64,000 nucleotides of DNA from Akkermansiaceae bacterium. GTDB taxonomy: Bacteria; Verrucomicrobiota; Verrucomicrobiia; Verrucomicrobiales; Akkermansiaceae. The translations under genes and the position numbers were made by a program. This document shows positions 7,031 through 60,604 of the stretch, in pieces (the first letter of the stretch is position 1; the number at the start of each line of letters is the position of its first letter). The notes under the pieces are model-generated. The model had not been told where the DNA came from. It saw nothing but the letters and a program-made list of their open reading frames with translations, and ran no database searches. Location of the stretch: positions 24,703 through 88,702 of the forward strand of contig SUVK01000002.1 of NCBI GenBank assembly GCA_015062055.1, given 5' to 3'.

Positions 7031-9136
7031 TTATTCCATTGTAAATATGGGCGACAGGGGGAGCGCCTTTGTCCTCTCTGTTGTCAGTCCCTCGTCTGAT
7101 ATATAATAGAGCTGTGCTGCATCTTTTGCTTGGCGTATGAAAACAGGCTCTCCTTCTTCATTTATAAAACCACAATATACGGCTGTTGCCGAATAATCAT
7201 TTAGAAAGTTTTGCTTCATCTCTGCGGCATAGTCGTGCCCTTTATGTGTCTTAAACCATTCGTCAAAAGCCCTTTCTGCACGTTGTACGGCGGGGTCTGC
7301 GCTGAGCCAGCAGCCGGGTCGCAACGTAATCTTGTGCTGTTTTATCAGGGCGGTAAATGATTCGGCGTGCTTTTTGAGAGTAGGCGAGAATCTGATACCG
7401 GTGAGTATGGGGTGCGGGTGTGCATCCAACAATTGCAATAAGCTCAGATACACATAGGCTTGTGCCAACGCCGGGTGTTTTCCCGTGGGGTAATTTAATA
7501 CCTGAGTCAACAATCCGGGTATATTGTGACTGATAAAAAATGTGTTGCGCTCGATGTTTAAATCTTTTACAAGTTGCGTTGCATCAATTTCTGTCAGCTT
7601 GTAGGTGTCATCATTTTGAAATTCCATTAAATTGTGTTCCGGGGAGAAATTCGGGTCGATGGAGCTTCTGCGGAAGGTGATGAAGTTTGATTGATGCAAC
7701 TCCGGCTTTATTGTGCTGTACCATGTTTCTGTTTCAGATATTTTCAATGCGTACACTTTGTAATGGTACGATGGTGCAGTAAACAGGTCTTCCGGTATTG
7801 TTAAAATGGTAGTATTGGGTGGGAATTCGGTGGGGAATGTAGGCGCGCCATCCAGAATCGCTGCTTTTGTCGCAGAAAAGAGTGCAGGTGTACAGCCCGC
7901 TTTGTTTGCCGATATTTGGGTTGTTACCTGTTGTAAGGTGAGTAACTTCCCTTTGATAGCCATAAGATTTTTAGATTCGCTGTATTGCGTGGTAGGTATA
8001 CTGTGGATAACCGAACAGAAAGAATTGTAACCGGCGCATGAGTTTAATTGAGTCAATCGAGATTGCAGTTGCTTTGTTTCGTGTATCGTACGCGTAGCCC
8101 ATTCTATTTTGCCGGTCAGCGTTGTCACTATGTCAGACTGTATGTTGTAGAGCCTTAAAGTGCTTTGTGTTTCCGCCAAACGAGTCTTCAAGGTTTGCAG
8201 ATATCCTTCCAGCGATTGCAGGTATTGCGGTAAGGTGCTATTTAACAAAGGCTCAGGAGGTAAGGGGTGTTCTAGTCTGTTTCTGATTTGAGCTTGATTT
8301 GCCCGCATTTCCGAATAACTTTGCCTGCATAAGTCTTGCCAGCGAGATCGTAATTGCTCTTGGTTGATGCGACTTTGGGAAATCTGATTTTCTATATTCA
8401 GCAATTCGGACGGGCCGAGGTCTATGATTAGCTTTCGTCTGTTTTCAAGTTCAGTTAATAGCGTATCAATGTCTCTGTAGGTCTTTTCCTGTTGGGCTAT
8501 CCATTGTTCAGCCTCTAAGATAAGGAATGAAAGCTCCGGACAGAAATAGAGGTTTATCTTGCTGTTTGCTTGTTTTTTTGTCTCAAGAAGTTTTGAGTAT
8601 GAGGGAGTGGCTAAAGCCTCTTTTAAGTCGTGTAAATGTTCGTGTGCGCGGTTATTCATGGCGTACCAAGTACCCCCTACGATAGCGCATGCGCATGCTG
8701 TTATAATGATTTTTCCGATGTGTTTACGTATTACTCGCCCCGATAATTCTCTGGTTCGTTTTTTGAGTGTTTTTTTGTATAGAATGACTTTTTCCGGCAT
8801 CTGTTGCCCGGCGTTGAGAATAATTTTTTCATGCTGTTGCAGTTTGGTCAGAATTAGGCGCAAGGTTTCGTTATTACACAAACGCAGTTCGTCAATGGGG
8901 TGATCATCGATGAGCCATTCAATGGCTTTACGCGCATCGTCAACCATGGCTTTTTTTCGTTCGGCTGCCGGCAGCATCAGTCGTAACGGTTCACCGTTGT
9001 TGAGGCGTCTCAGTTCCTCTTGCGCTTCAATATCTTGAGGGTTTGCTGTTGCGTAGTCTTGCAGCAATAATCTCAGCTCATCCCGGCGCTCGGCAAGCGC
9101 AAGGCGTTTCAGATGTCGCTGTATAGTGGCATTCAT
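7031..9136 (-). CDS. Large coiled-coil protein with a central/N-proximal TM helix; third gene of GTPase/GAP1-like operon
   Basis: 701 aa; KIIITACACAIVGGTWYAM TM; long helical region; 21 nt after the preceding gene. Confidence 0.75.
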   Translation of the reverse strand: MNATIQRHLKRLALAERRDELRLLLQDYATANPQDIEAQEELRRLNNGEPLRLMLPAAERKKAMVDDARKAIEWLIDDHPIDELRLCNNETLRLILTKLQQHEKIILNAGQQMPEKVILYKKTLKKRTRELSGRVIRKHIGKIIITACACAIVGGTWYAMNNRAHEHLHDLKEALATPSYSKLLETKKQANSKINLYFCPELSFLILEAEQWIAQQEKTYRDIDTLLTELENRRKLIIDLGPSELLNIENQISQSRINQEQLRSRWQDLCRQSYSEMRANQAQIRNRLEHPLPPEPLLNSTLPQYLQSLEGYLQTLKTRLAETQSTLRLYNIQSDIVTTLTGKIEWATRTIHETKQLQSRLTQLNSCAGYNSFCSVIHSIPTTQYSESKNLMAIKGKLLTLQQVTTQISANKAGCTPALFSATKAAILDGAPTFPTEFPPNTTILTIPEDLFTAPSYHYKVYALKISETETWYSTIKPELHQSNFITFRRSSIDPNFSPEHNLMEFQNDDTYKLTEIDATQLVKDLNIERNTFFISHNIPGLLTQVLNYPTGKHPALAQAYVYLSLLQLLDAHPHPILTGIRFSPTLKKHAESFTALIKQHKITLRPGCWLSADPAVQRAERAFDEWFKTHKGHDYAAEMKQNFLNDYSATAVYCGFINEEGEPVFIRQAKDAAQLYYISDEGLTTERTKALPLSPIFTME

Positions 9137-9157
9137 TTTTCTGAGAACGTTTTAATG

Positions 9158-10096
9158 CTATATTGTCATGGCGACAATGACCGAAAGCATGAATACTACT
9201 ATTACCCCGAATATGAAGAAACTAATTTTGCTTGTTTTCTGGGGCATATCAAAGCAGTCATCATCCGGTGCTTCTGTGTATTTATACGGTGTGGGGGTGC
9301 TTTGTTGTGTTATTGTACTCGTTGGTGATGGTATCGGTTCGGGGTGTAGGGTGGCGGTCTCCGGCAGTGGAACTGTGTTTGAGATAGGGGCTAGTTTTCT
9401 TCTTAATGCCAGAGTGGGTACCGTTGGGCTTCTATCTGAGCTCCCCGGTAATAAGGTAATATCGTTCTCTTTGAAATCTATTTCCGGGTTAATGGAGAAA
9501 CTGCGAAACCCTTTAGACCAACCTCGGTCTGAGGTAAGCCACATGCTTTCATGTAAAAGTAATAAAAATTGCTCGTTGGTTATTGTGTTAAAAGCCTGTA
9601 TGTAGCAGTGTGTGTTGTATGGTGGGGCGAGCAAAAGTGTTGCATTGCTTTTGTGTCCGGTGAGTGTTTTCCAGGTTTGCTGAGTCGATGCATCCGGTAA
9701 GGCCGAAGCAGGCATATGCGGTGCTTCTCGAGGAATAATTATAGTGGAGTCGGCTTGTGTCTTCCAAAAATTCCGGCTTAATAAGGCATAAATAATTCCG
9801 GCGGGGGTGGGGCGTGCGCTGTTCTCTTTCAATGCTGATACCTCATCATGCGTTAATGCCAGGTGGTGTATGATTTTTTGCCCTTGGGGTACACCGTAAA
9901 TTGCGGTCAAAATATGGCAAGAGCCATTTGTGTGGTAGCAATAATGCGTGCTATTCGGAGGGTAAGGGAACTCGGCTATTATTTGGCTCAATACGTCAAG
10001 TGATAACGCCAAGTCTTGAGGAATATCGGGTGATTCAGCGTAGACAGCTACTGCCTTACTGTCCCTGTCTATACCTCTGACCGATTGATAAGACAT
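9158..10096 (-). CDS. GAP1-N2-like domain protein with C-terminal TM helix
   Basis: Pattern LSLDVLSQIIAEFPYP...YCYHTNGSCHILTAIYGVPQGQKIIHHLALTHDEVSAL...GIIYALLSRNFWKT...LLLHESMWLTSDRGWSKGFRSFSI resembles GAP1-N2 (AHHLvl..E / ES..L....RW..tF); TM: FFIFGVIVVFMLSVIVAMTI. Confidence 0.6.
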   Translation of the reverse strand: MSYQSVRGIDRDSKAVAVYAESPDIPQDLALSLDVLSQIIAEFPYPPNSTHYCYHTNGSCHILTAIYGVPQGQKIIHHLALTHDEVSALKENSARPTPAGIIYALLSRNFWKTQADSTIIIPREAPHMPASALPDASTQQTWKTLTGHKSNATLLLAPPYNTHCYIQAFNTITNEQFLLLLHESMWLTSDRGWSKGFRSFSINPEIDFKENDITLLPGSSDRSPTVPTLALRRKLAPISNTVPLPETATLHPEPIPSPTSTITQQSTPTPYKYTEAPDDDCFDMPQKTSKISFFIFGVIVVFMLSVIVAMTI

Positions 10097-10108
10097 AATA
10101 GCCGTCTT

Positions 10109-11824
10109 TTAATTGTCGGAAAGTAATGATTCATTACAATAATTCAATACCCAGAGTGCGCAATCCGTTACATGGGCAGGGGTTAATTTGCCTTCGGTCG
10201 GGGCAATATAGATTTGCCCGGTTAATTCATCTTCGATTTCCTCCGGCGTTGTGCCGAATGAGGAAACGGCAAAGTAACTTACGTTATCTGATATAGATTC
10301 AGCGCTCGTGCAAATCTCGGGAGTGAGTCTGAACAGGAAATCTCGTAAGCGGTCGGAGTTTTCTTGTATGTTTTGAAGTTTTAATGTGTTGTTGCGGACG
10401 GCAGGGTGCAGGGGCTCCGGCCCCAAGAGTTCTTGCCACAAATCGCTTTTGGTCATTATGATGGCCAGTGGTTTATCGATTTTTGTGCTTGGCGGTAAGT
10501 TAAGCGTTTTGCGAAGGTGAATTTCGATATCTGCTAACAAAAGTGATTGCTTACAACGGTTGCGTGAGCATAGGTTTGCAACATCCGGGTTTGCGCCTTT
10601 GATTATTTCGGCAAATGCAGGTTCTTGTGTTGGGTCGAAAAGATAAAAAATAGCATCGGCATGTCTCAGCACGTCTTTATCATCTTTCCCTTCACTGTGG
10701 ACGTTTGTGTGATAAAGTGCCAGTGTGTGCGATTCTGAGTCTCGGTTGAATGCGTAGATGAATGGCCTGGGCATATCAGCGTATGCACCATCGAGCCATA
10801 CTTTACTTCTCAGTCGTGCTGCGAGTAATCCATGCCCCTCTCTGAACTCTTGCGGCGTGTTAGAGTAAAAGATCTTTATCCTCATGTTGTTGAGCGCTGC
10901 GTTTTGTTCAGGGTCTGCATCTCTGAAGGGAATACCGAAGCTGCGTGGCAGTTCTCGCTCTAATTGCTGTACCAGAGCCGACATGTAATAGGTTTTGCCC
11001 ACTGATTCTGCGCCGACTATGGCGATACTGTGGTGTATGGCTCTTTCGTAGAATGGTGGTAATTTATGATGACATGCCGGGCATGCGTATTCGTGGCTTA
11101 CCGAGCCCATCTCATCAACCGGTTTGCCGTCATCCGTATACACGGTGGGGGTGTATCTCTTCATGCATCGTTCGCCCAGTATGGGGTCTCCTTGCAGTAA
11201 AGAATGGGTTGCTATTGCTTTGGCTTGCTCCGGGGTGAAGGTGTGATAACAAAAGGCGCAGCAGAAAGTAGAGCTTTTCAGCTTTGCTGAGGTTGAGCTC
11301 TTTAAGGTTTCTCCGTCATTTTTTATTAAAAAATCTGCGACTTCTGCTAAATCATGAAGCCTGAATGCGTTGCGGTCTATGCCGTAGAAGGTCGCCAGTA
11401 CATTTTCATCGTACTTTCTGCACTCTTTCAAAATAGAGCAAAAATCCATCTCTTCGCTCCATTCTTGAGTATTCGGGTTATAAATATACCAGCTGTCAGC
11501 ATCGAATGTTGCAAAGTCAGGGCGCGAATCTTCATTGCCATACCATGCGATAAAGCAGCCTCCGCTCAATACGAATATGTAAAATCGCTCCGGTTTGATG
11601 TGGGCTATTCCGTTCGTGCGGTTTCCGTTGACCGAATAATCTGTAATTTGATTGTGCGGAAAAAACTTGCAGATGCCGTTACGTTGCGCAAAGACGCCGG
11701 CATTTTCTGCTTCGGTCTTGATGCGAAAAGTATTTTGCTTGCCCGAGCCCACAGCCATGAAATCTCCGTTAGAGACTCGAAGTTTTCCGGTCAGACAATC
11801 ATAGACATAAAGTTGATCTTTCAT
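10109..11824 (-). CDS. P-loop GTPase-like protein with FHA-like N-terminus and zinc-ribbon cysteines (possible double-GTPase family)
   Basis: Walker A GAESVGKTYY, TKSDLW (TKxD); CCAFC...C...CPACHH; N-terminal LRVSNGDFMAVGSGKQNTFRIKTE...DYSVNGNR...FYIFVLSGGCF looks FHA-like; ORF-track start at 11833 is TTG, ATG at 11824. Confidence 0.7.
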   Translation of the reverse strand: MKDQLYVYDCLTGKLRVSNGDFMAVGSGKQNTFRIKTEAENAGVFAQRNGICKFFPHNQITDYSVNGNRTNGIAHIKPERFYIFVLSGGCFIAWYGNEDSRPDFATFDADSWYIYNPNTQEWSEEMDFCSILKECRKYDENVLATFYGIDRNAFRLHDLAEVADFLIKNDGETLKSSTSAKLKSSTFCCAFCYHTFTPEQAKAIATHSLLQGDPILGERCMKRYTPTVYTDDGKPVDEMGSVSHEYACPACHHKLPPFYERAIHHSIAIVGAESVGKTYYMSALVQQLERELPRSFGIPFRDADPEQNAALNNMRIKIFYSNTPQEFREGHGLLAARLRSKVWLDGAYADMPRPFIYAFNRDSESHTLALYHTNVHSEGKDDKDVLRHADAIFYLFDPTQEPAFAEIIKGANPDVANLCSRNRCKQSLLLADIEIHLRKTLNLPPSTKIDKPLAIIMTKSDLWQELLGPEPLHPAVRNNTLKLQNIQENSDRLRDFLFRLTPEICTSAESISDNVSYFAVSSFGTTPEEIEDELTGQIYIAPTEGKLTPAHVTDCALWVLNYCNESLLSDN

Positions 11825-11845
11825 AAACGGCAATATGCTTGGCTC

Positions 11846-11874
11846 CTTATATCATATGCATTGAGTCTCGTCAA
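11846..11874 (-). promoter_or_regulatory. Predicted sigma70 promoter of the GTPase operon
   Basis: Minus strand TTGACG-17 nt-TATAAG, 21 nt before ATG. Confidence 0.6.
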
Positions 11875-11890
11875 GTTAATAGGATGCCAT

Positions 11891-11924
11891 AAAAAGGCAT
11901 CTCCTCGTTTGCTGAGGAGATGCC
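11891..11924 (-). terminator. Intrinsic terminator of RND operon
   Basis: Minus strand GGCATCTCCTC-agcaaac-GAGGAGATGCC-TTTTT. Confidence 0.85.
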
Positions 11925-15181: not shown

Positions 15182-17977
15182 TCAGAATTTTTTAAGATTA
15201 GACGTAGGTGTTTTATCTGCCGTTACAGAGGGTTCTACGGTTTTAGGCATGGTGTAGATAAATTCTCGTGGTGCCACTTTGTTGGCGCGTCCGTTTGCCT
15301 TCATGTTGGCCTGCATGGCCATGGCTGCAGGTATGGTCCCTTCGACGATTACTTTTATCTTATCGAGCGGGAGCAAGGCTCCTTTCTCGTCAACAAATCC
15401 CATGTGTACAAGAAGTTGCGGGTTAAGCTCGATAACCTGCATGGGTTGCTCTACTTCTTTACCATCGGGGCCTGCCACCGGTATGGTTACGATGGGTCCG
15501 CGCTTGATTGGTACCGCTGTGGGGGCGCCATCCGGTCCCACCAGCAATACGATATCATGACCTTCTGCATTCATGGGGGCTCGTGCCGGTACGATGTAGG
15601 CATTTTTGAAATCTCTGGCTACAATTCGCACCGTTACGGGCATACCGCTGCGCAGACCGTGAGTTACATTTTCAACCTCACCCACTATACCGAAGGTGCC
15701 GGTGCTTTTCTTAACAATGTTGTCAGGCGAAACGATTTTCCCTTCAACGGGGTATTCGCTACCATCTTCCAGTATAATTTTGAACGGCATGCCACCGTTG
15801 GGGTTGTTGATGCCTACTTGATTGGTGATTAAGAGAGTGTCTCGACCACTTACCTGAAAATCTACTCTCAGCGTGTCTACCGATGAGAGGGTGACCATGG
15901 CTTCGGGATCTGTTGAGGATACCAGTGTACCAATAGAGGGTTTGCTGATGCCGACTCGTCCCCGGAACGGTGCTTTAATGGTGGTGTAGCTCAGATTGAT
16001 CTCAGCCGTTTTAACGGCGGCCTTCATTTGAGCAACATTAGCTTCTGCAAACCGCAGGGCTGCCTCTTGGGCTTGTACTGCACTTTTTGCTTCGGTTATA
16101 TCTTTTTCCGAATACGTGTTGGGGGTTTCGATGTTGGCTTTTGTTTTACGGCTCAAGGTGTCTTGCGCTTTTGCCAGCTCGACTTCTGCCTGCGTTTTAC
16201 CTGCCTCGGCCGAGGCTAGATTTGCATTTGCCTGGTCTAACTGGGCTTGATAGGGACGCGGGTCAATCGTGTAGAGAATATCACCCTCATTTACGATGGT
16301 ACCGTTGCGGAAGTGCTGTTTGAGCAAGAACCCGTTGATGTGCGGGCGAATTTCTGTTTCTTCTTTACCGCGTAAGCTGCCGAACCAGTCGGAATAGACG
16401 CTGATGTCTTGTTGACGTAAAGCGGTAACTTTTACGGGAACGGGCGGTTGGGTTGCCTTGGCATTCGGGTCAATCTGAGGTTGCGCTTGTTGTTGGGCAA
16501 CTCGCGGGTCTGCCGGTTTGAAGGTGAGAATCTCGGGCTTAACGGTTGCCGGTACAATTGTATCAGGAGACGGTATTTCGTCTTCCATGCCCAATGCAAT
16601 GAGGAAGCTGCTCAGTGTGCTATCCTTTTGTTTCTTGTATGCTTCCTCTTGTTCTTTCTTTCGCTCGGGCAAACGCGAATTTGCAGACGAGATATTCATA
16701 GCCTGCACGCCATTGTCGGGGTCGGCTACGACACAGGCTTTTGTAACATCCGTTTCGCCTTTTGGGAGATAAGGTTTGATGGTTTCATCAAGAGGTGTGC
16801 CGGTGTAACTACCAATGGCCACGAATTGTTGTTTTGACGTATAGCCGGTTTCGGGCTCTGTGACTTCGATTTCGTATGTGCCTTCCTCGACAACCGGGAT
16901 GGCGTGTGGTACGTTTTGTGCATCAACGACAATGATGAAATTGTTGCGCAATACGGTGTAAATGGCACTCGGTGGCACTAATAATGCATCTCTTTTGCTT
17001 GCGGCAAGGGGAATTCGTACATTTACCTTCATGCCACTGCGCAATTTATGAGCGGGGTTTTCGATTGTTCCCACAATATCGACAAGTCCGGTTTTGTCTA
17101 TGCGACTGTTGATGGAGAGTAAGTCGCCTTTCACCGGGGCGTTATCGTGCGTGTAGATGGAGCCGTCTTCCAATATAAGCTCAAACTTGGGAGATTCAGC
17201 TTGAAGGTTCTCGTTGATTGTGGCCGATTCTACCTGTCCGAAGCGCTCGAATCCTTGTAACAGAGCGTCACTGTTAATTGAAAAATCAACACGCAAAGGG
17301 CCATCGGATACGATATTGCCAAGCTTGGTTGTCGGCCCGACTAAGGCGCCTGTAGATACGTTTGCCGTGCCGACAAAACCGGAGTAGGGGGCTCTGACGG
17401 AGGTGTAATCCAAATTAATCTGAGCCGTTTTGCAAGCTGCTTCTTTTTGCTTGATGTCAGCTTCACATGCTTTCACTTTGGCTTCTGCTGCTTGCAGGTT
17501 CAACCGAGCCTCGGTGTAAGTTTTCTCTGAAACGGCCGTAATGGTTTTGTGTTCTTTTTCCTCTTTTTCTTTTAAAGCCGTGTAGCGGTCGCAATCAGAC
17601 TGCCATTTATCGCGCTCTGCAATGGCTTGGGTGAGGGCTGCTTTTGCGGCCTGATGGTTTGCCTGGGCTCGCTCGAGTTCGGCTTGGAACGGTTCCGGGT
17701 CAATCTGAAAAATAACGTCGCCCTCTTTTACCTGTTGCCCTTCTTTGTAAGAAATGATGAATCCCGAAACACGAGGGTATAAGTCAGTATCCTGAACACC
17801 CCGTAAGTAGCCCATCCATACAGCGCTATCGGTAACGCTTACTTTGCGGATGTTGAATACTTTAACATTTGGGGCCGGGCTGGTTGCTTCTGCTTTTTCT
17901 GTCTCGGAACAGGAGGTCATGAGTACCCCTGCTGTACACAGACTGAAAGCTAAGGCTGTAATGGCTTTTTTAGTCAT
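15182..17977 (-). CDS. RND efflux periplasmic adaptor, tandem fusion of two MFP/HlyD modules (lipoprotein)
   Basis: Lipobox LMTSCSE. Module 1: GYLRGVQDTDLYPRVSGFIISYKEGQQVKEGDVIFQIDPEPFQAEL; module 2: GSLRGKEETEIRPHINGFLLKQHFRNGTIVNEGDILYTIDPRPYQAQL; each followed by hairpin and INLdYTsvrAPysGfVG / INLSYTTIKAPFRGRVG. Confidence 0.92.
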   Translation of the reverse strand: MTKKAITALAFSLCTAGVLMTSCSETEKAEATSPAPNVKVFNIRKVSVTDSAVWMGYLRGVQDTDLYPRVSGFIISYKEGQQVKEGDVIFQIDPEPFQAELERAQANHQAAKAALTQAIAERDKWQSDCDRYTALKEKEEKEHKTITAVSEKTYTEARLNLQAAEAKVKACEADIKQKEAACKTAQINLDYTSVRAPYSGFVGTANVSTGALVGPTTKLGNIVSDGPLRVDFSINSDALLQGFERFGQVESATINENLQAESPKFELILEDGSIYTHDNAPVKGDLLSINSRIDKTGLVDIVGTIENPAHKLRSGMKVNVRIPLAASKRDALLVPPSAIYTVLRNNFIIVVDAQNVPHAIPVVEEGTYEIEVTEPETGYTSKQQFVAIGSYTGTPLDETIKPYLPKGETDVTKACVVADPDNGVQAMNISSANSRLPERKKEQEEAYKKQKDSTLSSFLIALGMEDEIPSPDTIVPATVKPEILTFKPADPRVAQQQAQPQIDPNAKATQPPVPVKVTALRQQDISVYSDWFGSLRGKEETEIRPHINGFLLKQHFRNGTIVNEGDILYTIDPRPYQAQLDQANANLASAEAGKTQAEVELAKAQDTLSRKTKANIETPNTYSEKDITEAKSAVQAQEAALRFAEANVAQMKAAVKTAEINLSYTTIKAPFRGRVGISKPSIGTLVSSTDPEAMVTLSSVDTLRVDFQVSGRDTLLITNQVGINNPNGGMPFKIILEDGSEYPVEGKIVSPDNIVKKSTGTFGIVGEVENVTHGLRSGMPVTVRIVARDFKNAYIVPARAPMNAEGHDIVLLVGPDGAPTAVPIKRGPIVTIPVAGPDGKEVEQPMQVIELNPQLLVHMGFVDEKGALLPLDKIKVIVEGTIPAAMAMQANMKANGRANKVAPREFIYTMPKTVEPSVTADKTPTSNLKKF

Positions 17978-18010
17978 ATGAATATTGTGCAAGTAATATA
18001 AAATGAAAGA

Positions 18011-25244: not shown

Positions 25245-26891
25245 TCAGTTGCTACGTTCTTCAATGAATTCGACGCCCAGCAGGCAAATATCATCATCTT
25301 GACGCGTAGACTCGGTAAAGCGGTGCATGCCCGCAAGAGAAATGTCTATCATCTCTTTGATGTTTTGCGGTGTATGCTGTTGCAGGTAGGAGATGATGCG
25401 TTGAACTCCCATTTCTTCGCCTTGCGGGTTGGTTGCTTCGTATAAACCATCGGTATAGAGCATGAGTTTCATGCCCGGCTCTAGCGCAATTTCGCTTTCT
25501 CGATACAGGGCGCTGTCTAACAACCCCAGTGCCGGCGATCTCGGTATGGGCGGTAATATGGCTCGGCCATCTTCCGACAAAACTATGGGGGCCGGGTGCC
25601 CCGCACCCGAAAGCGTGAGCCTGCGCTTGTCTAAATCCAGATACACATAACAGGCCGAGGCAAACATGGTGATGTTGGCTTGGCTGAAGATGCGGAAGAG
25701 TTGGCGATTCAGCGATGAGAGAAGCAAGCCCGGCGTGTCGGCCAAGGTTGAAACCTGCTCCATGAGGCCGCGAAGCATCGAGGCAATGAGTGCTGCTCTT
25801 ACGCCATGGCCCATGACATCGCATATCAACATACCCACCCCTGACTCCCTGACGGGGAATACTGCAAAACAATCTCCCGCCACGCCGGTGCAGGGCATGT
25901 AAACGTGGTGAAATCTGGCGGTGCGCTTAGTGCCGTTTTCTCCGTCTTTCCATACGCGGTCGGGTATGCGCAGCGGTTGCAAGGCATGCTGAATCTCACG
26001 TGCAAGGCTTATTTCTTTTTCGAGTGCGCGATTTCGCTCATCTAGCTGTTCGGCCATGCGGCGGTAGCGTTGCTGTGTCTCAACGAGTTCCGTTACATCG
26101 GAGGATATGCCGACTATGCCCTTAACGTTGCCCGCTGTATCATACCAGGGAAACTTAGACAGTTTGCACCATGAGTTTTCGCCATCTTTCCAACTTTCTC
26201 GGTGTATACGGTTGGTAATGGGCACCCCGGTACGCATGATTTCCAGCTCTTCCTCTCTGGCTACCAATGTGGTATCATCTGCAAAAAAATGTGTGTCCTT
26301 GCAGCCTATCAGGTCTGATGGGGTGGGTACGCCCATTTTGCGGGCCGTGGCTTCATTTGCCATAACAAAGCGAGACTCGCGGTTCTTGTAGTAGATGTTG
26401 TCGGGCAAAAAGTTAATGAGGTTGCGGAACAAGTCTCGGTCCTCCATGGCGTGCATATCTGCCATTTTGCGACGCGTAATATCGACCCAAACGCCGACCA
26501 GCTGGATATTTTTTTTGTTCTTATCGCGCTCCAAAAGGCCGTTAACACGCACCCATCGCCAACCTCGAGAATGCAGGTTCAGTAGGCGAATCTCTACTCG
26601 AAGAGGGGCCGTTGTGGGGCGTCCTAAATACTTTTGTACTTCGTTGGCAAAGAATTGTCTATCGTCTTCGTGGATGGTATGCTCCGGGTCTGTGAAAATG
26701 TTAGGTGCCCATTCATCAAAGGGCAATCCCATCATGCGCAGACACTGCTCCGTATAAAAAATCTCTCCACTCTCGATATTCCAACAGTAAACACCTTCTT
26801 CTGCCGCCCTTAATGCTTTACGTACCATTTTCCAGTTAAATACACCGGGTACGGTTTTGCCTGTGCTGTTGCTGTCAGAAGGTCGACTCAT
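25245..26891 (-). CDS. PAS/PAC sensor with PP2C-type (SpoIIE/RsbU) serine phosphatase domain
   Basis: Two PAS regions; FHHVYMPCTGVAGDCFAVFPVRESGVGMLICDVMGHGVRAALIASML... ; ELMLYTDGLYEATNPQGE-type motif. Confidence 0.93.
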   Translation of the reverse strand: MSRPSDSNSTGKTVPGVFNWKMVRKALRAAEEGVYCWNIESGEIFYTEQCLRMMGLPFDEWAPNIFTDPEHTIHEDDRQFFANEVQKYLGRPTTAPLRVEIRLLNLHSRGWRWVRVNGLLERDKNKKNIQLVGVWVDITRRKMADMHAMEDRDLFRNLINFLPDNIYYKNRESRFVMANEATARKMGVPTPSDLIGCKDTHFFADDTTLVAREEELEIMRTGVPITNRIHRESWKDGENSWCKLSKFPWYDTAGNVKGIVGISSDVTELVETQQRYRRMAEQLDERNRALEKEISLAREIQHALQPLRIPDRVWKDGENGTKRTARFHHVYMPCTGVAGDCFAVFPVRESGVGMLICDVMGHGVRAALIASMLRGLMEQVSTLADTPGLLLSSLNRQLFRIFSQANITMFASACYVYLDLDKRRLTLSGAGHPAPIVLSEDGRAILPPIPRSPALGLLDSALYRESEIALEPGMKLMLYTDGLYEATNPQGEEMGVQRIISYLQQHTPQNIKEMIDISLAGMHRFTESTRQDDDICLLGVEFIEERSN

Positions 26892-39265: not shown

Positions 39266-41050
39266 TCAATGGCTGAGCCAAAAAGTGTGAGACTCCGTTA
39301 AATCGTATGTAGAATAGGCTCCTTGAGGAAAGTGAACATGTGGCCAAGTTGCTATGTTTACTCTGTTTTCCATCCACCCCGGCAGCCAAACCGCTTGCTC
39401 GTAAATGAGTTTCTCGATTGTGGCTGCTGCCGTGTTGAGTTCATCTTGTGTCGTTGCTGATTCGAAGTATTCGATAGCAAGGTCAATTTCGTGACTGTGC
39501 AAGTTGAACGGGGCGTCGTCTCCTGTAGCAGAAGAATGGAAGCATTGTCTGTAGTTCGGCAATGGGTTCCCTGCAACGGTAGACCAAAAGAGCATGTGGT
39601 GTTGTTTTTGCCTGACGAGGTTTGAACAGCTTTGCCATGGTAGAGGTTCCGGTACGATTTCGGCACCGCATGTTTTTGCGCTTTGTGAAAGCAGGGCTAC
39701 CAAGGTGCTGACTTTTTCCGATGGTGTGTAGGCTAAGCGTATGCTCAGGCGTGTGCCATCCTCTTTCATTAAAATACCATCTGCTCCGCAATGGGTATAA
39801 CCGGCTGCATGAAAATAAGCTCTTGCGGATTCGGGATTATAGGAGTATGGGGAAGAAGTATGCTGTATTCTTGCATAACCGGAGGCAAATTGAGGTAAGC
39901 GTTCTACCTCGCCACGGAAAATGATTTGCATGGCATATTGCATATCCATGGAGTGCATCAATCCTTTGCGAAGATTGAGGTCGGGCAATGTTTGTGCATT
40001 CAGAGCAATACCGTAGGGAGGCATGGGGTAGTTGAGTGTAAAGCGCAGCTGTTTTATTTGGCTATCAGCATAGGTGATTTTTTCTTGCCACGCAACGATG
40101 TTGCGAGTTTGTAGTACATCTAAAGCACCACGCAAGAAGAGCTCCCACACCTGTGCTTCATCGGTCAGAAAGTGGTGCTCTATAGTATCCGCATTGCATG
40201 TGTGGCGAAAACCGGCAAGATTCTTTGCCCACCAAGCATCATTGCGCACCAGGGTGATAAGTCGCCCGCGCTGTACTTTGCCCACGGTGTATGCCCCGGT
40301 CGTGGGGGGGATACGGTGTTGATAGCGTTTTTGGTAATCACTGCCGAATTCGGCGTAGAAGCCGGGCTCGGCCGGGTGCAGCGCTTGGGCTGCGATTAAG
40401 TAGGGCTCAATACTCTTTCTTCGCAATTTTATCGCCAGCACAGAGTCTTCGTACACGTGCAACTCATCTATTATATTGCTGCACGTTGAGTCCCCTGTCT
40501 GTTCTCTCAATAGGGCCCCTAGTGCGAAATCTCCTGCGCGCACAGGGCGCCCGTTCGAGTAGCGAGCCTCCGGGTTAAGTCGAAACCACAATAGGCCTTG
40601 ATGCTCAGCCCAGGCTTCAGCTAATCCCGGTATTTGTTGTCCGGTTGTCGGGTGCTCTCTTACCAGTGGTACGTCTATGCGGGTAAACAAATTATAGTGA
40701 AAAAATTGGGGGGAAGGACTACCGAAAGCGAGAAAGTTGGCGGGGAACGGCCCAACATTACTCATGCGGAGGCAGCCCCCCTTGCGGGCAAGGGGGGAGC
40801 CGATTTCGGGAAACTCTGATGTAGTTTGCCACGGTATATGTGCAGCAGATTCAGTATGGCGCAAAACTTTCATCGAATGCATTTGCCCGAGTTGCCGATC
40901 AAAATCATCGGGATATGGGGCAGGGGGCATGTTTTGCACACTCGTTGCTGTCCGGGATGTTACATGGTCGGGTATTGCCAAATGTGCTAACACATACAGT
41001 ATTAAACAGAAAAGCAACAAACCAGCTGCTATGTATCGGTATTTTTTCAT
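39266..41050 (-). CDS. SBP_bac_5 (OppA-like) extracytoplasmic solute-binding protein, N-terminally membrane anchored
   Basis: GLAEAWAEHQGLLWFRLNPEARYSNGRPVRAGDFALGALLR...; TTGAYTVGKVQRGRLITLVRND; DLNLRKGLMHSMD. Confidence 0.85.
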   Translation of the reverse strand: MKKYRYIAAGLLLFCLILYVLAHLAIPDHVTSRTATSVQNMPPAPYPDDFDRQLGQMHSMKVLRHTESAAHIPWQTTSEFPEIGSPLARKGGCLRMSNVGPFPANFLAFGSPSPQFFHYNLFTRIDVPLVREHPTTGQQIPGLAEAWAEHQGLLWFRLNPEARYSNGRPVRAGDFALGALLREQTGDSTCSNIIDELHVYEDSVLAIKLRRKSIEPYLIAAQALHPAEPGFYAEFGSDYQKRYQHRIPPTTGAYTVGKVQRGRLITLVRNDAWWAKNLAGFRHTCNADTIEHHFLTDEAQVWELFLRGALDVLQTRNIVAWQEKITYADSQIKQLRFTLNYPMPPYGIALNAQTLPDLNLRKGLMHSMDMQYAMQIIFRGEVERLPQFASGYARIQHTSSPYSYNPESARAYFHAAGYTHCGADGILMKEDGTRLSIRLAYTPSEKVSTLVALLSQSAKTCGAEIVPEPLPWQSCSNLVRQKQHHMLFWSTVAGNPLPNYRQCFHSSATGDDAPFNLHSHEIDLAIEYFESATTQDELNTAAATIEKLIYEQAVWLPGWMENRVNIATWPHVHFPQGAYSTYDLTESHTFWLSH

Positions 41051-42996
41051 CAGAACGTAATGGTACAGCCTGCATGAATAGTAGTGCCTGCCGAAATAAA
41101 AGAGTAATTCGGGTCGGCATAGTGACCTTCCGTTACATATTTCTGGTTAGTAAGGTTTTCAATTGCAACATGCAAGCTTAAGTTTTCATTGACCTTATAT
41201 TGAGCATACCATCGCAAGTTGTAATAATTGTCCAGATGACTATATGGCGTTGCCGAGTAGTGGCTTCGCCCAACCGCTGCTGAAAAGCCAATCCCGGTTG
41301 TAAAATCCTCTATGGGTGACGTATGGATGTCCGCTTGCCATATTTGGCGTACGGAGGACGGAATTTGTTTGTCGTCAGATGTTTTTGGCCGGGTGTAGGT
41401 CCACGATAACTTATATTGCGTATTCCAATGGGGCTCAAGCGTGCCACTCAGCGCCATTTCCGCACCGAGGATAGTCCAGTACCCCTGCATGTTCTCGTAA
41501 CGGCTTGCGTAGGCCGCGTTATCCCAAACGGTGCCTATGGCGTTATCCCTTTGTTCCCAGAAGAAGGTAAGGCTGAATGTGTGATTATCGGATACTGATT
41601 GCTCGAACCCGATGTCGGCACTGATGCTGTTTTCGCAATCCAAGTCGGGATTGCCGATGTATTTGCCATAGGGCGCTACGAATTCTCCTGCGCTGCTTTG
41701 GAAGGATGAAGGTGCCCGATACCCGGTGCCGACAGAGGCAAATACTCGCGTTTTGTCGTCATTAAAACGGTATGACGATGCAGCGCGAATGCTTACGAGG
41801 GCATCGTGCACATTGCTGTAATCCAGACGAGCAGCCAATGTGCTATCCCAATTTTCGTTTGGGGTAATATGGTGCTCTGCTGCCAGCCCGAACACGTTTT
41901 CAAGATTCTTGTACTGATTATCTGTCGTGCCACCCGAGACACAATCGTAGTCATTGCGATTCCACGAAATGGCGGCCATAGTGGTTTGGTGCTTGCACCA
42001 CTCGTAGTTGTTACGCCATTCTACTTGTAAGTTGCGCATGTTTTGCAGGTAATCATCTGCTAATTTGGCATCAAAGGTATAGTAACCGGCCATAAGAGAA
42101 CTCTGCCATTGGTCGGTAAGCTGTGTTTGCCATTTTGCTGTCAGTAGATTACTGCGAAAACGGTAGGTATTGTAGGTGGGCCAAGCGGGGTCCATGGAGT
42201 CATATCCATACTCAGAATCCTCTCGTCGATAGGTGAGCGTGATTTTGTTCTCATCGTCAGGGCGATAATCCAAGCGCATTGCTTCGTTACGCGATTCTGA
42301 TTCAAAAGCATTGCGTTGAGCGGAGGTTTTGCCGTTGGCTGTTTGCACATCGTTATCGGTGCGTGAATAGCCGATGTTGAAAAACCAAGCCAGATTATCC
42401 ACACATCCTTGGGTGGATACGTTGCCGGTGTAGGCATTGTTGCTGCCTACCTCGTTAAATAGAGTGATGCCGGGCTCGCCTTCGCCCTCCGGGGTTTCCA
42501 TAAAAATGACACCGCCGATTGCTCCGCCTCCGAAAACTGCACCTTGGCTGCCCTTGAGCACCTCGAGATTACCCAATGAAAAAACATCCGTCCTGCCCAG
42601 CACGTTAGAGGTAATGAGGGTATCGCCGCCGTTTGAACTCAAGCGCATGCCGTCTATCATGGTGGATGTGTAGGCGTCAGAGCTCATGCCGCGTATCACG
42701 ATTTGTGAGGTGTTGCCCTTTTGGTTGGCACCACCACCGGGTAGTACGTATACGCCCGGTAACGTAGTAAGGGCCTCCGAAACAGTGTAGATGCCCTCTT
42801 CTTTCATTTGTTCCAGATCTACTACCTCCACCGATACTCCTGTTTGGTCATAAGGTATGGCGAATCCGCCGTGGGCTGATACTGTGATGGAGGGTAGCTC
42901 TGTTTCTTGCTGATCTGCAAAAACGCCGCCTGTCGCTATCAGCGCAGGCACTACTGCATATGCCACTATCTGAGTGGCGTTTTTTTTGTATTTCAT
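41050..42996 (-). CDS. TonB-dependent outer-membrane receptor, probable corrinoid (BtuB-like) transporter
   Basis: Plug: VSEALTTLPGVYVLPGGGANQKGNTSQIVIRGMSSDAYTSTMIDGMRL...; C-terminal beta-barrel signature; downstream of cobalamin riboswitch. Confidence 0.9.
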   Translation of the reverse strand: MKYKKNATQIVAYAVVPALIATGGVFADQQETELPSITVSAHGGFAIPYDQTGVSVEVVDLEQMKEEGIYTVSEALTTLPGVYVLPGGGANQKGNTSQIVIRGMSSDAYTSTMIDGMRLSSNGGDTLITSNVLGRTDVFSLGNLEVLKGSQGAVFGGGAIGGVIFMETPEGEGEPGITLFNEVGSNNAYTGNVSTQGCVDNLAWFFNIGYSRTDNDVQTANGKTSAQRNAFESESRNEAMRLDYRPDDENKITLTYRREDSEYGYDSMDPAWPTYNTYRFRSNLLTAKWQTQLTDQWQSSLMAGYYTFDAKLADDYLQNMRNLQVEWRNNYEWCKHQTTMAAISWNRNDYDCVSGGTTDNQYKNLENVFGLAAEHHITPNENWDSTLAARLDYSNVHDALVSIRAASSYRFNDDKTRVFASVGTGYRAPSSFQSSAGEFVAPYGKYIGNPDLDCENSISADIGFEQSVSDNHTFSLTFFWEQRDNAIGTVWDNAAYASRYENMQGYWTILGAEMALSGTLEPHWNTQYKLSWTYTRPKTSDDKQIPSSVRQIWQADIHTSPIEDFTTGIGFSAAVGRSHYSATPYSHLDNYYNLRWYAQYKVNENLSLHVAIENLTNQKYVTEGHYADPNYSFISAGTTIHAGCTITF

Positions 42997-43014
42997 TTGT
43001 ATGGTATTGTCTGT

Positions 43015-43180
43015 GCTCGGTGCAACGCCGAGCGATTTAGACTTGCTCCACGGCCGGTCTTCCGACTGAGTTCGCTTTGTGATATGCGAACAACACGGTT
43101 GCGGCACAGCGGCAGATTCTCACTGCCTTTCCCGTCTATTTCCTGCGGCTTCCTCGCCGCCTCCGGGAGCAAAGGTCCGT
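43015..43180 (-). promoter_or_regulatory. Cobalamin (B12) riboswitch
   Basis: Minus strand: ATAGACGGGAAAGGCAGTGAGAATCTGCCGCTGTGCCGCAACCGTG...AGTCGGAAGACCGGCCGTGG (B12-box); adjacent hairpin GCTCGG-cgttgca-CCGAGC before ATG of receptor; exact 5' limit uncertain. Confidence 0.9.
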
Positions 43181-43369
43181 TATTTTGTTGAACCTCGCAG
43201 GCATTTAATATCAAATTACGAATCAATGCAAGCTTAATTTCTTGTTGTCTGTGCATTTTCGACAGTCCGGTGCAGTAGACATTTTTGAGAGTGTAGGGCA
43301 TAAAACAGTGTCTCGTGGCCTTGCTAGCCTCCAAATCAGAAAGAAAAGCCACACGTTAGCAAATTTTGC

Positions 43370-60082: not shown

Positions 60083-60604
60083 ATGACTCAAAGAAATATA
60101 ACAACATTGGGACAAGCTTTGGAGCAAGCTGTGCCTATTATCGATATCAGCTCCAGAATACATGAAAACAAAAACCCCGAGTTTGCTTTATTAAGCAATT
60201 TGGGCCATAAACCTTTCCGTATCGATGGCCTCTCTTTTGAGTGCTTGGAAGGATTTTTGCAGTGTATTAAGACAGATGATGAAGCCAGACAAATGGATTT
60301 TTGTGCTATGTTGGGGCGGCAAGCAAAAAAGGAGGGTTCTAAAATAGCGTGGAAGCACAAGCAAACCTTATATTGGAAGGGGCGGGCTTATGGCCGCCAC
60401 ACAGAGGAGTACCAGCAATTAATTTCACGAGCCTTTCAAGAATGCTATCAACAATGCGAGGAGTTCCGGACCGTGTTGGCTGCTACGGGGAATGCCATTT
60501 TAGACCATACTATTGGTAAAGTAGACCCGACAGACACTATTTTAACGATAGAAGAGTTTGTGAGTCGACTGACGCGTTTGCGCGAGTATGGTTCGTTATT
60601 ATAG
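60083..60604 (+). CDS. Divergent NADAR/YbiA-like protein
   Basis: LSNLGHKPFRIDGLSFECLEGFLQCIKT ... ISRAFQECYQQCEEFRTVLAATGNAILDHTIG parallels YbiA SNF..P..VDGK.WPTSEHYFQAQK ... AKFEQHAELRALLLAT...LVEHT. Confidence 0.5.
   Translation: MTQRNITTLGQALEQAVPIIDISSRIHENKNPEFALLSNLGHKPFRIDGLSFECLEGFLQCIKTDDEARQMDFCAMLGRQAKKEGSKIAWKHKQTLYWKGRAYGRHTEEYQQLISRAFQECYQQCEEFRTVLAATGNAILDHTIGKVDPTDTILTIEEFVSRLTRLREYGSLL

Follow-up and report, generated by a model that had tools for sequence, protein, structure and literature searches.

We take the three-gene operon described here to be a reduced, vertically inherited member of the GAP1-N2-type DO-GTPase systems, in which a disarmed GTPase has been kept as a membrane-tethered pseudo-GTPase scaffold; we put the probability of this reading at roughly 55%. 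The operon lies in a 64-kb stretch of DNA that was analysed as a whole and is referred to below as ‘the window’. The 2.42-Mb assembly from which the window comes has same-genus relatives that are Akkermansia, mostly herbivore-gut MAGs, and the source genome is an Akkermansia of this herbivore-gut group. The locus comprises the following elements, given from the promoter side:

11896–11924, minus strand: intrinsic terminator of the upstream RND gene (terminator scan; kept in relatives)
11846–11874, minus strand: sigma70-like promoter TTGACG-17-TATAAG, the sole exact match in the 64-kb window
10109–11833, minus strand: GTPase-fold gene, open reading frame of 574 aa
9158–10096, minus strand: GAP1 middle gene, open reading frame of 312 aa
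7031–9136, minus strand: third-component gene, open reading frame of 701 aa

The open reading frame coordinates agree with the tight spacing of three minus-strand genes reported in the preliminary description, the gaps being 12 nt and then 21 nt. The promoter reported there is likewise present, and its core (a −35 TTGAC plus TG-n-TATAA) is kept in the related loci L081, L080 and L063, and more weakly in L064, where the −10 element is only weakly kept. The spacer sequence is not conserved among related genomes. The terminator of the upstream gene marks the operon boundary, and the promoter follows directly after it. The TTG start of the GTPase gene (11833) is not conserved; relatives start at an ATG at 11824, so the window's protein is probably 571 aa long.

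The first protein is built from an all-beta N-terminus, a zinc ribbon and a GTPase fold, in which these features were placed:

11537–11815, minus strand: FHA-like beta sandwich, residues 7–99 (AlphaFold secondary structure)
11072–11263, minus strand: zinc ribbon, residues 191–254 (C192, C195, C251 and C254 invariant in 31 orthologues)
10991–11014, minus strand: G1/P-loop (Walker A) GAESVGKT, residues 274–281, intact (alignment, motif positions)
10709–10711, minus strand: His375, at the position of the G3/Walker-B Asp (alignment; end of beta strand 367–376 in the model)
10442–10453, minus strand: G4 TKSD, residues 461–464, intact (alignment, motif positions)

The DO-GTPase2 model of Pfam matches 27 of the 31 orthologues; the window protein alone scores 0.023, under the Pfam cut-off. 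Its AlphaFold model (pLDDT 85.6) finds EF1A, Rac, Ras and Rab among PDB structures, with E-values of about 1e-6 to 1e-4. Orthology and fold match thus support kinship with the TRAFAC/Ras-like GTPases. To this extent the earlier assignment, which listed the Walker A and TKSD motifs, is sound, and both motifs were located; it overlooked the loss of G3, with which the protein ceases to be an intact GTPase. Two separate Cys clusters had also been reported. The Cys pairs exist (residues 191–195 and 251–254), but they are the two halves of a single zinc ribbon.

The N-terminus had been read as an FHA-like sensor. Ten strands occupy residues 7–99 of the model, and they form an all-beta sandwich. Phosphothreonine-binding FHA domains use GR and SxxH residues, a generally known pattern. 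These canonical residues are absent from the window's N-terminal sequence, which reads AVGSGKQNTF...ENAGVFAQ in the FHA-like region, and so ‘FHA sensor’ can describe at most a probable fold. Likeness to FHA and YscD cytoplasmic domains (PF00498, PF16697) extends to an orthologue that matches both models: L059, the only one with a Pfam FHA match (5.5e-4).

The middle protein comprises, in order, an N2 region, a middle region, a Pro/Thr linker and a TM helix:

9719–10096, minus strand: GAP1-N2 region, residues 1–126 (aligned to the Pfam GAP1-N2 match of L056)
9410–9664, minus strand: probable GAP1-M region, residues 145–229 (aligned to the Pfam GAP1-M match of L056)
9170–9226, minus strand: TM helix, residues 291–309 (hydropathy 2.93; the family's usual TM position)

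Its likeness to GAP1-N2, proposed earlier from sequence pattern, is borne out by its kin. GAP1-N2 (PF20013) is matched in 20 of 30 middle-gene orthologues (best 1.5e-22), and the proteins of the window's subclade align with non-Akkermansia GAP1 proteins at 7e-17 in hhalign; the 312-aa protein itself has no direct Pfam GAP1-N2 match. GAP1-M (PF20014) is matched only in L056, from A. glycaniphila (3.5e-7), and the matched stretch aligns to window residues 145–229. GAP1-C matches none of the 30 orthologues, and the window protein has no sequence after its TM helix. Middle proteins are normally about 800–970 aa long, with the TM helix at about 290–390 in most full-length relatives; shorter forms of roughly 500, 380, 312 and 266–301 aa occur in several lineages. 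The window's copy stops just after the TM helix and lacks the part of some 600 residues that follows it in relatives. The helix does not stand in place of other GAP1 domains, as had been supposed: it is the family's usual one, and what is missing comes after it.

The model of the third protein shows long helical arms besides a TPR-like head, and ends in an alpha/beta domain:

8678–8734, minus strand: TM segment, residues 135–153 (Kyte-Doolittle maximum 1.54)
7034–7813, minus strand: C-terminal alpha/beta domain, residues 442–701 (conserved; also in the solitary paralogue on G000:C15)
G000:C15:67160–67630 (L157), reverse strand: solitary third-protein paralogue of the window's own genome (counterparts in other genomes: L158–L169, L171 and L172)

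The long helices of the preliminary description are there; the TM segment it named is weak in the window's copy, but clear in most relatives (hydropathy about 1.7–3.2 where detected). Across the Verrucomicrobiota the third protein forms a single family (hhalign 2.7e-27 against non-Akkermansia homologues), whose orthologues match no Pfam family beyond weak TPR matches. A known fold was sought and rejected: the best E-value in a PDB structure search was 0.31, and sequence gives coiled-coil-like matches only. In 15 genomes, the window's included, a second, solitary copy of 880–910 aa occurs without GTPase or GAP1. An intact second GTPase at that locus was considered and rejected, as only the third-protein paralogue is present. 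At two of these loci (L163 and L171) a Ser/Thr protein kinase gene, the N-terminus of whose product has zinc-ribbon-like Cys pairs, precedes the paralogue.

Of 77 Akkermansia genomes, 53 have the GTPase gene; in a sample of 243 genomes from the order it turns up in 59, Prosthecobacter-type and other Verrucomicrobiota among them. A number of near-complete Akkermansia genomes of 2.7–3.5 Mb lack it (e.g. G004, G014, G059 and G064). The cultured A. glycaniphila has an intact cassette, and L071 exemplifies the G3-intact type. The usual order in relatives is GTPase, GAP1-N2 gene and long helical membrane protein, and the three co-occur in this order in most, as the preliminary description would have it. 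GTPase and third gene are found together in 48 of the 77 genomes, neither in 18 and one alone in 11 (Fisher p 1e-8, uncorrected for ancestry). Within the genus, single components can go missing. At the site in G022, G008, G027 and G006 the third gene is lacking, with GTPase and GAP1 present; L174 and L178 have GAP1 and third gene without the GTPase, and, while both are bounded by contig ends, a full GTPase gene would still be partly visible upstream. The third gene stands alone in L175–L177, and beside a 58-residue GTPase remnant in L173. Since there are relatives in which the third gene, with or without GAP1, is retained in the absence of the GTPase gene, the GTPase-fold protein is no obligate hub. 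A downstream phosphodiesterase was rejected as specific evidence of membership: 74 of the 77 genomes carry it, whereas 53 carry the GTPase.

Among the neighbours of relatives, a protein kinase gene lies directly upstream of the GTPase gene at L051:5518–7119, and GYF_2-domain proteins adjoin the cassette at L060:3933–7087 and L057:2876–3523 (one of each was scanned).

The central observation concerns the GTPase switch. Aligned to its relatives, most of which have YDNAGE at G3/Walker B, the window protein has YHTNVH; the conserved Glu of DO-GTPases is missing. With the motif lost, we file the protein as a derived variant, and not as an active DO-GTPase. Of the 81 GTPases in the alignment, 11 have lost G3. 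When the tree is computed with the P-loop and G3 columns left out, this represents about three to four events, all within a single clade of 15 genomes (SH-aLRT 98). P-loop defects accompany five of the 11 G3-lost proteins and none of the 70 G3-intact ones, some sister copies having also lost the P-loop Lys or Ser/Thr; the defective rows are related by descent, and amount to about four events on the tree. No second DO-GTPase was found in the G3-lost genomes. Coupling of G3 loss to GAP1 truncation was rejected, the sign test on the tree (3–4 independent pairs) not being significant; GAP1-N2 scores are lower in G3-lost genomes, a difference confounded by ancestry.

Might the operon be simply a decaying remnant heading for loss, its constraint relaxed and its genes residual? 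Akkermansia offers a graded series of the expected kind: full cassette, G3 loss, GAP1 truncations, the remnant in L173, third gene alone in L175–L177, and nothing. Against decay, long open frames persist in the G3-lost members, the promoter is conserved, and selection is strongly purifying. In the G3-lost pair L080/L081, omega is 0.062 for the whole GTPase gene, 0.11 for GAP1 and 0.15 for the third gene. For the G domain it is 0.063 in that pair and 0.118 in L067/L073, the more distant of the two G3-lost pairs compared. Switch II identity in L067/L073 is 30%, as against 83–100% in three G3-intact pairs. In G3-lost relatives, then, the GTPase-fold protein is under purifying selection with switch II drifting; between the window and its nearest relative dS is saturated, so that dN/dS of the window's own copy is not computable. 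We regard decay as unlikely.

Systems of this kind are not new, and here the earlier suggestion of an undescribed system falls: gene content and order match the GAP1-N2-type DO-GTPase (‘GTPase-centric’) systems, a prediction of Kaur et al. 2020 (eLife, PMC7159879). Measured against the main text of that paper, the window's operon shares the zinc-ribbon TRAFAC GTPase, the GAP1 protein encoded next to it, with an N2 region (and probably an M region), the TM segments, the presence in Verrucomicrobia and, near some relatives, GYF proteins, which Kaur et al. noted beside planctomycete systems. It differs in having neither an FNIII component (no match in the three window proteins or in third-component orthologues) nor a recognised effector; in a GTPase with one zinc ribbon, where two are usual, and an FHA-like N-terminus; in the loss of the G3/Walker-B Glu; in a GAP1 TM helix placed between GAP1-M and the rest, with the post-TM part deleted; and in the helical third protein, which the paper's main text does not describe. 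In the openly accessible literature, represented by that main text, we found no description of the pseudo-GTPase state, the form combining TM helix with truncation, or the third family; nor did we find, in the literature, an experimental study of any DO-GTPase/GAP1 system.

Kaur et al. predicted the family to be a conflict system (PMC7159879, main text), and the window's operon could accordingly be an active, membrane-tethered anti-phage system of new configuration, its GTPase switching on infection and its truncated GAP1 serving as membrane effector. TM segments in two components fit this picture, and the kinase and GYF neighbours of some relatives resemble themes of that paper. The window's GTPase has nevertheless lost G3, and the site in Akkermansia is fixed, beside housekeeping genes. 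When the three window proteins were scanned with Pfam, NCBIfam and PADLOC, nothing exceeded the cut-offs; no PADLOC match was of note, and no effector module was recognised in the operon. No phage homologue was found, and plasmid carriage came to two weak Rhodococcus matches. The conflict role proposed in the preliminary description thus finds no direct support, and we consider it quite unlikely. More improbable still is a non-canonical but working GTPase with another residue substituting for the G3 Asp. In its favour, the window's copy retains an intact P-loop GKT and TKSD, and some GTPases do function with altered motifs; against it, switch II diverges along the whole loop, and the P-loop Lys or Ser/Thr has been lost in sister copies as well.

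Under the favoured reading, a retained pseudo-GTPase scaffold, the cytoplasmic FHA-like/zinc-ribbon/GTPase-fold protein would dock on GAP1 at its N2 and middle regions, both in the cytoplasm, and GAP1 would be anchored at the inner membrane through its one TM helix. Gene order, homology, loss of the motif, truncation and purifying selection in G3-lost relatives are observed; the complex, its topology (from hydropathy and charges only) and the scaffold role are what we infer. The third protein would be the other membrane partner, its TPR-like head cytoplasmic and its long helical portion, past a TM segment, extracytoplasmic. Complete relatives would use GTP switching to relay to the cytoplasm what the third protein and the post-TM part of GAP1 sense. 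The window's lineage would have that switch disarmed, the G3 motif being gone and the post-TM part deleted, and the protein retained as a pseudo-GTPase scaffold, in which nucleotide binding may persist. The p190RhoGAP pseudoGTPase domains (PMC5593906) are alike in keeping a GTPase fold after loss of catalytic motifs, with a scaffold role proposed. Those domains are eukaryotic; the present setting is a bacterial operon, known from sequence, and the losses recurred independently within one genus.

What might have taken over the switching? Matched by handle and locus correspondence, the 15 genomes that bear the solitary third-protein paralogue appear to be the clade that holds all the G3 losses. 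Because a 15-row clade counts as one event for the paralogue trait, this overlap is a lead and not a test. It is possible, if somewhat doubtful, that in Akkermansia a working DO-GTPase switch has given way to a pseudo-GTPase on several independent occasions, each time in the clade with the solitary second copy (adjoined in some genomes by a Ser/Thr kinase), the fold staying as a scaffold and switching passing to another module.

Elsewhere in the window, a 936-aa protein (15182–17992), apparently a head-to-tail fusion of two HlyD-type membrane-fusion adaptors, adjoins an RND pump gene. A PAS-PAS-SpoIIE phosphatase protein is encoded at 25245–26891. A cobalamin riboswitch (RF00174, 33.2 bits) at 43035–43182 overlaps the mechanical start of a TonB-receptor ORF (41050–43107); the real start probably lies farther inside the frame. 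A 173-aa protein at 60083–60604 matches Pfam Phage_30_3 (bacteriophage gp30.3; E 2.8e-40) in a stretch that is otherwise chromosomal.

DO-GTPase/GAP1 systems have been predicted from sequence only. Akkermansia, with intact, G3-lost, truncated and gene-less cassettes in one genus, provides a comparison set for the role of each part, and a bacterial example of a GTPase fold that is still under selection after loss of its switch motif.
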